Assembly (NCBI GenBank): GCA_012840225.1
Contig: DULU01000040.1
Location: 1-43,824, forward strand
Origin: Bacillota bacterium
GTDB taxonomy: Bacteria > Bacillota > Limnochordia > DTU080
Length of the DNA: 43,824 bases
Direction of reading: 5' to 3'
Under the pieces are notes generated by a model. The model searched no databases. It saw only the letters and a list, made by a program, of their open reading frames with translations, and was not told the DNA's origin. Within the stretch, counting starts at the first letter, position 1, and each line of letters starts with the position of its first letter. A program made the position numbers and the translations under genes. This document shows positions 24,768 to 26,861 of the stretch, piece after piece.

Positions 24768-24786
24768 AAGTCCTGGAGGGGTGATT

Positions 24787-24969
24787 ATGGGGCGATTGGT
24801 GACGGCGCATGAATTTGTCGATAAATGCAACAAGGAATGCTTAAGCCGCAAGTATCGCTGCGCCCGTTACAAGACGGTGAGAGAATATCTGACTCATCTG
24901 GAAACCCGCTTCGAACGCCGCAAAGATGTCCAGGCCTGCGAGGAGCCCGTGGTGCGCCGCACTGAATAG
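24787..24969 (+). CDS. 60-residue hypothetical protein after tyrS
   Basis: ATG 24787 with GGAGGG six bases upstream; 60 aa beginning MGRLVTAHEFVDKC. It carries Cys at 14, 18, 25 and 50 (KCNKECLSRKYRC) and a basic, probably helical middle (YKTVREYLTHLETRFERRK). No membrane segment or signal. I do not know the family. It lies 19 bp after tyrS, so it is likely in the same transcript, which ends at the hairpin 25045-25074. Confidence 0.65.
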   Translation: MGRLVTAHEFVDKCNKECLSRKYRCARYKTVREYLTHLETRFERRKDVQACEEPVVRRTE

Positions 24970-25026: not shown

Positions 25027-25044
25027 TATGTATATATAAACCAA

Positions 25045-25074
25045 GAGCCGCAAACTCAATTGGGTCTGCGGCTC
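25045..25074 (+). terminator. Hairpin, likely terminator of the tyrS unit
   Basis: GAGCCGCA (25045-25052) pairs with TGCGGCTC (25067-25074) around a 14-nt loop. The following CGAGTTCGTTCTT is only weakly T-rich. It lies between convergent genes. Confidence 0.5.
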
Positions 25075-25132
25075 CGAGTTCGTTCTTCCCGTGGCCCGGT
25101 CGGCCTTTGCTTAATCCCCTGTCGACCGGCCG

Positions 25133-25288
25133 TCATTGGGCGCTTACCAGATGATCGAGCACGAACCGACTGCTGTTGTCCCTGGTCAGATGGTAGGGCC
25201 GATGGCTCTTTGTCAGTTTGCATGCGCACCGTATGCAGTATTCACGGTGCGACATGTTCTTTGTTCCGCAATCCGGGCATTTCTTCAT
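25133..25288 (-). CDS. 51-residue zinc-ribbon protein (paralog 1)
   Basis: Starts at ATG 25288 with AAAGGAGG upstream. The start KKCPDCGTKN and EYCIRCACKL give two CxxC pairs (Cys4/Cys7, Cys18/Cys21), a compact zinc ribbon; then KSHRPYHLT and the tail SSRFVLDHLVSAQ. A paralog with the same ribbon and the same SSRFVLDH tail lies at 26567-26722. No family name known to me. The start is fixed by the ribosome site and by alignment with the paralog; a longer frame to 25360 crosses the promoter. Promoter: extended -10 TGCTATATT (-10 hexamer 25319-25314), no clear -35, and three operator-like boxes upstream. It is divergent from the glycosyltransferase. Confidence 0.8.
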   Translation of the reverse strand: MKKCPDCGTKNMSHREYCIRCACKLTKSHRPYHLTRDNSSRFVLDHLVSAQ

Positions 25289-25340
25289 CGTGGTATTTCC
25301 TCCTTTCGCACCCAATATAGCATAATGGCGCCCATCAATG

Positions 25341-25399
25341 GTTAACGATGGGTTAGACATTAGTTAACGTTGCGTTAGACATAAGTAAACGATGGGTTA
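25341..25399. promoter_or_regulatory. Three operator-like boxes with exact 22-bp period
   Basis: GTTAACGATGGGTTA (25341-25355), GTTAACGTTGCGTTA (25363-25377) and GTAAACGATGGGTTA (25385-25399), start to start 22 bp, joined by GACATTA and GACATAA. Each holds the symmetric core TAAC-N5-GTTA (last copy AAAC-N5-GTTA). The nearest is centred about 42 bp before the predicted start of transcription of zinc-ribbon gene 1; the others are two helical turns further up each. The same box occurs before zinc-ribbon gene 2. Confidence 0.7.
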
Positions 25400-25533
25400 A
25401 CGCCTCCCCTCCCCCACCGCCCGGCTGACACGAACCGGACCGCACGAGCGTAAAATGCTGCCGTAGCCGGTACAGAGGGCCGTGCAGGGTCCGGTGCATA
25501 ATGCAGAGTGCAGATAGCCGTCGGGGGTGCTCC

Positions 25534-26574
25534 ATGCATATTGTCATGCTGCTAGCCACCTTTTTCACTTCAGGGCAAACCACCCATGTGGTCGACTTAT
25601 GCCGCGCCATGCGCGCCGCCGGGCACACGGTCGATCTGGTCGTCTCCCAAGCGCGCCACTTCCCGCAGACGAGCGAGCAATATATGAAAAAGCTGAGGGA
25701 AGCCGGGGTGAATGTCTATGAAGCCGAGGAGCCAAGAGCCTTGCTGGATCTCATAGCCGCCCGGGCACCGGACATCATTCATGCCCACTCCTCCCGCGAC
25801 TTCCACTCCGCCTACCTGATCAAAAAGACCCTCGGCCTGCCCTATGTGCTCACCTGCCACGGCCTGGGGCTGGATGGCGGGAGATATGCCAAGGCGCTGA
25901 ACCAAGCCTCCTGCCTGATCTGCGTGGGAAAGCGCATAGAGAACAGCATGAAGTTTTTCCACCCGCCGAAAGTGCTGATGCCCAATGCCGTCGATCTGGA
26001 CCAGTTCAGGCCGGGAAAGAAGGATGAAGTGTTCACCATTCTATATGCCGGGCGGCATGATCATTACAAAGAGCCGGGCCTCATTGCTTTAGGCAAGGCG
26101 GTGGAGCGACTTTCCGGCTCCTTCCGCTTCCTCGTGGCCGCCAACCGGACCGCCGAGGCGCATATCGGCCGGCGCGGCCAGTTCCTGGGCTGGGTGATCG
26201 ACATCGCCAGGCTGATGCGCCGCTCCCATGTGGTCGTGGGCACGGGCCGGGCGATACGCGAAGGTATGGCGGCCGGCAATGCCTGCCTGGTGCTGGGATG
26301 GAGTTATGATGGGCTGGTGGATGAGGAGTGGCTGGCCAAAAGTGATTACGTGGATTTCAGCGGCCGATGCAACTACCCGAAGCCTCCGGCGCCGGCAGAT
26401 ATATACCGGGATCTGATGCGGCTGCAGAAGGACAAAAACTTATTGGCCAATTTGCAACGTCGAGGGCGAGCCTATGCCGAAGAGCATTTTTGTCTGAAGA
26501 AGTGTGTGGAGCAGACTTTGGAGATCTACGGGAAATATATAAAAAGCGGGGACACCCGCCCCCGCTTTAGTTGA
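25534..26574 (+). CDS. Glycosyltransferase family 4-like protein
   Basis: 346 aa from ATG 25534 (GGGGGTG upstream; an in-frame ATG at 25501 is less likely). GT-B fold: MHIVMLLATFFTSGQTTHVV and DLCRAMRAAGHTVDLVVSQ form the N-terminal domain, with DIIHAHSSRDF and YVLTCHGLGLDGG; MPNAVDLDQFRPGK marks the hinge, and VVGTGRAIREGMAAGNACLVLG supplies the nucleotide-sugar Glu site of GT4. It would transfer a sugar to a lipid or surface polymer. It is alone, flanked by two zinc-ribbon paralogs, and its 5' region shares the box array at 25341-25399. Its end overlaps the convergent zinc-ribbon gene 2 by 8 bp. Confidence 0.88.
   Translation: MHIVMLLATFFTSGQTTHVVDLCRAMRAAGHTVDLVVSQARHFPQTSEQYMKKLREAGVNVYEAEEPRALLDLIAARAPDIIHAHSSRDFHSAYLIKKTLGLPYVLTCHGLGLDGGRYAKALNQASCLICVGKRIENSMKFFHPPKVLMPNAVDLDQFRPGKKDEVFTILYAGRHDHYKEPGLIALGKAVERLSGSFRFLVAANRTAEAHIGRRGQFLGWVIDIARLMRRSHVVVGTGRAIREGMAAGNACLVLGWSYDGLVDEEWLAKSDYVDFSGRCNYPKPPAPADIYRDLMRLQKDKNLLANLQRRGRAYAEEHFCLKKCVEQTLEIYGKYIKSGDTRPRFS
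26543..26568. terminator. Bidirectional hairpin inside the convergent gene ends
   Basis: AAAGCGGGG (26543-26551) pairs with CCCCGCTTT (26560-26568), 8-nt loop, ending in A/T on both sides. It lies within the last codons of the glycosyltransferase and at the stop of zinc-ribbon gene 2. Confidence 0.55.
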
Positions 26575-26722
26575 ACTTGTGATCCAAGACGAAACGGGAA
26601 CTTCTGGCGTTGTGTGTGAGATGAAGCATTCTATGACTTCTGGTCAGCTTGCCGCCGCACTTGACGCAATACTCACGGAACGACTGGTTCCGGGCTCCAC
26701 AATCCGTGCATTTGTTCAGCAT
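26567..26722 (-). CDS. 51-residue zinc-ribbon protein (paralog 2)
   Basis: Found by translating the minus strand: ATG 26722, with GGAGGGAGG upstream, to TAA 26569-26567. The start LNKCTDCGARN and EYCVKCGGKL give CxxC pairs (Cys5/Cys8, Cys19/Cys22); then RSHRMLHLT and the end SSRFVLDHKFN. It aligns over its whole length with paralog 1, sharing KC.DCG, REYC..C..KLT.SHR, HLT and SSRFVLDH. Too short for usual gene cutoffs. Its promoter also has an extended -10 (TGTTATATT, hexamer 26752-26747) and one TAAC-N5-GTTA box about 43 bp before the predicted transcription start. Function unknown; a nucleic-acid or protein-binding adaptor is conceivable. Confidence 0.78.
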   Translation of the reverse strand: MLNKCTDCGARNQSFREYCVKCGGKLTRSHRMLHLTHNARSSRFVLDHKFN

Positions 26723-26774
26723 TGGTTAATTCCTCCCTCCGATGCCAATATAACACATTTTAGCTCTGGTGGAG

Positions 26775-26789
26775 GTTAACATTGGGTTA
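26775..26789. promoter_or_regulatory. Operator-like box before zinc-ribbon gene 2
   Basis: GTTAACATTGGGTTA, the same pattern as the three boxes at 25341-25399, at nearly the same distance from the -10 hexamer (22 bp here against 21 bp there). Confidence 0.65.
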
Positions 26790-26861
26790 CATTCCATCCA
26801 TGCGGGACCTGTCATGTCCCCCCCGTTCCAACCCGCTCACTCCCTCCCACTCCCACGCTCC

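Follow-up and report, generated by a model that had tools for sequence, protein, structure and literature searches.

Candidate Pho-type direct repeats at the promoters of two small zinc-ribbon genes in a Limnochordia bacterium

Introduction

What controls two tiny zinc-ribbon genes that share an unusual promoter, and what might their products do for the cell? The question is raised by a stretch of 43,824 nucleotides from a bacterium of the class Limnochordia (contig DULU01000040.1, hereafter the window), in which an initial annotation made from the letters had placed both genes behind a palindromic box and had proposed a small regulon with an activator of its own. The observation of two genes, their extended -10 elements and their boxes is confirmed and is stronger than first stated. 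Judged by its geometry, however, the box is better read as a TTAAC direct repeat recurring every 11 bp than as an inverted repeat, in the manner of PhoB, PhoP and WalR sites, and it is a known kind of regulatory repeat, that of the phosphate-starvation or cell-wall response regulators. Our preferred reading, to which we give a probability of roughly 0.55, is that both genes are monocistronic members of the regulon of PhoP, a PhoB/OmpR-family regulator of phosphate starvation, and have no private activator.

The two genes and their products

The features of the locus, which lie on the minus strand except for the last, are as follows.

25044..25075, minus strand: intrinsic terminator 3' of gene A
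25133..25288 (stop codon included), minus strand: gene A, encoding a 51-aa zinc-ribbon protein, MKKCPDCG...SSRFVLDHLVSAQ
25314..25322, minus strand: extended -10 of gene A, TGCTATATT
25341..25400, minus strand: box array of A, six TTAAC-like units, one per 11 bp, making three 22-bp boxes (TTAACCCATCGTTTAC, CTAACGCAACGTTAAC, CTAACCCATCGTTAAC)
26543..26568, minus strand: intrinsic terminator 3' of gene B, overlapping the end of the convergent glycosyltransferase gene
26567..26722 (stop codon included), minus strand: gene B, encoding a 51-aa paralog of A, MLNKCTDCG...SSRFVLDHKFN
26747..26755, minus strand: extended -10 of gene B, TGTTATATT
26775..26790, minus strand: box of B, GTAACCCAATGTTAAC, two units 11 bp apart, with a core common to the G001 and G002 orthologs
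26804..26820, no strand assigned: GGGAC-N7-GTCCC inverted repeat upstream of the B box, a weak match to a CggR-operator model

Genes A and B lie 1.4 kb apart with a glycosyltransferase gene (PF13439) between them. Each is a single 51-codon ORF behind a strong ribosome-binding site (for A, AAAGGAGG upstream of the ATG at 25288), and each has its own terminator and is read as monocistronic. That they are paralogs, as first proposed, is borne out by 62% identity over 47 residues and by the CxxC-x10-CxxC pattern in both products, whose two CxxC knuckles are invariant among homologs. Across 35 aligned codons, 12 are identical, 9 differ synonymously and 14 non-synonymously, and a protein search finds A and B as the sole copies in their own genome. 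B is the syntenic copy: G001 and G002, which represent two further genera of the family, likewise have an ortholog downstream of an ABC permease.

The Pfam search gave no family above its cut-off for A or B; Zn_Ribbon_1 (PF13240, cut-off 25) reaches 21.0 bits for B and 13.5 for A, and a homolog in the f6 group passes at 27.4 bits. The suspected family of small proteins is real and conserved: profile searches recover it in 37 of 73 genomes from the class and, once the cut-off is tightened, in 19 of 299 from the phylum. The SSRFVLDH tail noted earlier is indeed common to A and B, but it belongs to this pair alone, the family version being F[VI]LD. The AlphaFold model of A has a mean pLDDT of 60.5, with residues 29-51 below 50. 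Small CPxCG-related zinc-finger proteins (PDB 8q5b) are of similar size, about 50 aa, and also have a zinc-binding CxxC knuckle, but the match to them does not rise above noise (E 0.1). Nearby, at 24781-24969, a 62-aa cysteine-containing ORF with no Pfam or NCBIfam match lies 3' of a gene resembling tyrosyl-tRNA synthetase.

Promoters and box geometry

Both promoters have the extended -10 element TGnTATATT, which occurs three times in the window against 0.49 expected, and no sigma-70 -35/-10 promoter was found in the A/B region, in keeping with the original description of extended -10 elements lacking a good -35. The repeat unit is (T/C/G)T(A/T)AC per 11 bp, which gives a coding-strand box of (T/C/G)TAAC-N6-TT(A/T)AC. 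One box per gene had been reported; this holds for B, while A has three in tandem with start-to-start distances of 22 and 22 bp, the third matching TAAC-N5-GTTA with one change. On an assumed start site, the units begin at -93, -82, -71, -60, -49 and -38 in A and at -50 and -39 in B, so that at least two 11-bp direct-repeat units lie near -35 to -60 at each gene, where a PhoP/PhoB-type site is expected. The same assumption puts the box centre at -41.5/-42.5 for A and B, in agreement with the class II activator position 42-43 bp before the start that had been claimed.

This geometry is not confined to one genome. The distance from the end of the last unit to TGn is 18-19 bp in A, B, G001 and G002, and TAACCCAATGTTAACC is kept in the orthologs of the two other genera at an equal distance from a TGnTAT -10. 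The core 15-mer TAACNCANNGTTWAC has exact matches in the 3.55 Mb genome only at the four places in the A and B promoters.

An Rfam scan of the window returned two tRNAs alone, with no leader RNA and no c-di-AMP riboswitch. A GTCCCGC motif recurs in B, G001 and G002, some 12 bp before the TAACCC box (26804-26820; L016/L017). Against the CggR-operator model, 26804-26820 scores 14.3 bits (E 0.08 in 66 kb), a weak match of doubtful significance, and no match was reported at A.

The repeat at zinc-ribbon genes of relatives

The repeat is present in 18 of the 18 zinc-ribbon promoters examined in families f1, f2, f3, f6, f10 and f12 (a few weaker paralogs being left out of this count), against 10 of 178 other genes. 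It is absent from all nine riboswitch-controlled homologs; in f8 and f13 a c-di-AMP (ydaO/yuaA) riboswitch precedes the zinc-ribbon gene in place of the repeat (L018, L019, L021, L023, L216, L217, L219-L224, L226). Outside the class, two of the homologous promoters inspected carry it (L239, L244). The units run in the coding orientation in f1, to which the window belongs, and in f6, and in the opposite orientation in f2, f3, f10 and f12.

A second element, GGGAC-N15-GGGAC-N7-GTCCC, stands at the promoters of f2, f3, f6, f10 and f12, and a CggR-operator-like element lies near the start site at L033, L042, L093, L101, L025-L028, L212, L214, L215 and L218. A covariance model was built for the GGGAC leader as a candidate new RNA, and this candidate was set aside as its stem is nearly invariant. 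The element is instead taken as the CggR operator, a DNA site, because the model matches at cggR. In the own genome its match leads to cggR (CggR_N, E 1.9e-24), with gapA and pgk downstream as read by eye, and in many relatives to cggR-like genes, assigned by protein resemblance. The published CggR operator of the B. subtilis gapA operon also matches the model (PMC11229326). An operator of this type is not significantly present at A or B.

The repeat at phosphate genes

A scan of the 3.55 Mb own genome with the pattern BTWAC-N6-TTWAC gave 34 sites. Four belong to the A and B promoters, and a further one falls in the gap that separates phoR from the phoU operon (C88), the only location of the repeat among the phosphate operons of this genome. 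Outside both promoters the density is one site per ~118 kb, which puts the probability of finding one by chance within 200 bp at about 0.002. In the own genome, G001 and G002 alike, the cluster runs phoP, phoR, membrane protein, ABC ATPase, phoU, and the box, with an extended -10 after it, lies between phoR and the membrane-protein gene. The gaps of G001 and G002 hold TTTACATATTGTTAAC and TTTACATATTATTAAC, with the extended -10 conserved, and an alignment of the three gaps shows little conserved beyond box and extended -10. The names PhoP and PhoR rest on linkage to phoU, which in C88 adjoins a response-regulator frame and a histidine kinase.

In relatives, the phosphate genes preceded by the repeat are phoP, pit, nptA or pstS. 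It stands in coding orientation upstream of phoP (G002), a PHO4-family phosphate transporter (G001), a PhoU-domain transporter-like gene (G003) and pstS (G016, G034 and G025). In a hand tally, 5 of 14 phosphate units carry it against 2 of 165 other genes (Fisher test, p = 2.7e-5), a value that is indicative only, since the counting was done by eye with the motif already in hand. The motif itself was partly derived from loci later used to test it. In G004 and G005, the zinc-ribbon gene itself lies upstream of rpsD (identified by eye) and pstS, with further pst genes after them.

Several other repeat sites of the own genome do not adjoin phosphate genes and are functionally mixed, and 1-mismatch matches elsewhere fall mostly within genes or beside unrelated genes. 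PstS and PstB had no match in the own genome at the cut-offs used. The phoR-linked phoU cluster is itself unusual (L173:4760-9275, L174:537-5482, L176:5331-10584): conserved in three genera, it comprises a membrane protein with no Pfam match and a weak ABC ATPase, and lacks PstS. A match upstream of pheS (G000 and G002) was not counted because it overlaps a sigma-A-like -35/-10 pair before a small ORF and a T-box. At this locus, the pheS T-box leader follows a small conserved ORF of ~32 aa (L182:4239-4698, L183:3156-3611), and the promoter, with its TTAAC-like repeats, is conserved between two genera.

Which regulator reads the repeat

The Pho box of PhoP and PhoB consists of 11-bp direct repeats, in which 22 bp make a dimer unit and dimers may stand in tandem, and it covers the -35 of genes in which that element is weak; the consensus unit of B. 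subtilis is TTAACA. The A and B repeats share this 11-bp/22-bp tandem architecture and occur also at phoP, pst-, pit-, nptA- and phoU-type genes. They differ in their unit, TT(A/T)AC(C) as against TTAACA, and in a set of targets that includes a small zinc-ribbon gene. We know of no described Pho regulon with such a gene, and a literature search for one as a Pho target found none.

PhoP is the most economical candidate in this genome, given that the repeat is also found in the operon region of its own kinase, and a private activator would not be needed, as the same 11-bp repeat also marks phosphate-signalling operons. Of the regulon first proposed, the shared box stands and belongs to a wider regulon, the box being kept in two further genera; the dedicated activator finds no support. 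On this model, head-to-tail dimers of phosphorylated PhoP would occupy the TTAAC units 11 bp apart, around -50 to -35, where they would stand in for the absent -35 contact and switch on the extended -10 promoter, activation being suggested by the position of the box together with the missing -35. With its three dimer sites, gene A would be under stronger or more sensitive control than B. The protein made would be a small, soluble zinc ribbon that probably serves as an adaptor, its tail binding a partner.

The box could instead be a site for WalR (YycF), which reads TGTWAH-N5-TGTWAH (PMC9210968), so that the genes would belong to a cell-envelope and growth regulon and the boxes at phosphate operons would reflect overlap between PhoP and WalR sites. 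We consider this unlikely, though it is the chief rival and deserves to be taken seriously. The PhoP and WalR motifs are near mirror images, and the box shares core and spacing with the WalR site on the other strand; the zinc-ribbon promoters of G004 and G005 (f3) hold TGTAAA-N5-TGTTAA, an exact WalR consensus, and the repeats of f2, f3, f10 and f12 have the WalR orientation. Moreover, c-di-AMP riboswitches control homologs in other families, in the own genome a repeat in the WalR orientation stands before the gene of an M48 (HtpX-type) protease, and a further repeat, of unstated orientation, precedes an MscS-like membrane protein identified by eye. The units of f1 and f6, however, run the opposite way, as at phosphate genes; the window boxes have GGTTAA-type units and do not show TGTWAH-N5-TGTWAH in coding orientation; and the box of the phoR-phoU gap is conserved in three genera.

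Quite a bit less probable is another OmpR-family regulator, neither PhoP nor WalR, that reads 11-bp repeats in response to its own signal. The architecture alone would suit many PhoB/OmpR-type regulators and the genome-wide sites are functionally mixed, but the repeat turns up again and again with phoPR/phoU, pst, pit and nptA-type genes, which speaks against this reading.

Direct or inverted repeat

An activator specific to a small regulon and reading TAAC-N5-GTTA as an inverted repeat, as the initial annotation had it, is very improbable. The core 15-mer is near-palindromic and, in its own genome, confined to the A and B promoters, and the window holds three exact TAAC-N5-GTTA sites against 0.14 expected, a count reached in 0 of 100 shuffles. 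Genome-wide, there are 13 such sites against 37 for the reversed control, and no enrichment. The tandem spacing is exactly 22 bp with six units in 11-bp phase, and the f2 promoter has three units in that phase. Against the palindrome stand the third A box, which keeps only the direct repeat, and the orthologous promoters of f6 and f12, where TTTAC-N6-TTTAC is a direct repeat without an inverted arm. LytTR-type 22-bp repeats were also considered and set aside, since they would leave single-box promoters with one monomer site and agree less well with the 11-bp phase.

That chance or simple duplication left the two paralogs, 1.4 kb apart, with a common promoter as a by-product is barely credible, given that box and spacing are kept in two other genera despite differing flanks and that the repeat marks every zinc-ribbon promoter in the count above.

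Implications and further observations

The regulation of homologs by phosphate or envelope, sugar-metabolism or c-di-AMP signals suggests that the zinc-ribbon protein is a putative small effector of nutrient or growth state. It is possible, if on the whole doubtful, that the ~50-aa family forms a shared output of PhoP/WalR-type boxes, CggR and c-di-AMP riboswitches, exchanged between lineages, and that its members link phosphate and sugar status to envelope homeostasis by a logic like that of SR1P. SR1P is a 39-aa GapA-binding protein of B. subtilis reported only from Bacillales (PMC8152036); the likeness, that of a small protein tied to central glycolysis, is one of analogy only, and the zinc-ribbon proteins have no Pfam match to it. 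The coupling of nutrient state and growth in Gram-positive bacteria could well be approached through a family of this kind, made up of uncharacterised small proteins whose conserved regulation has been repeatedly rewired among phosphate/envelope boxes, CggR and c-di-AMP. A usable Pho-type box is also offered for a poorly studied class.

Finally, the own-genome region upstream of the M48 (HtpX-type) protease (C129, L186:3762-3990) combines an 11-bp repeat, an extended -10, a CggR-operator-like element and a possible terminator with no obvious ORF, and may possibly encode a small RNA.
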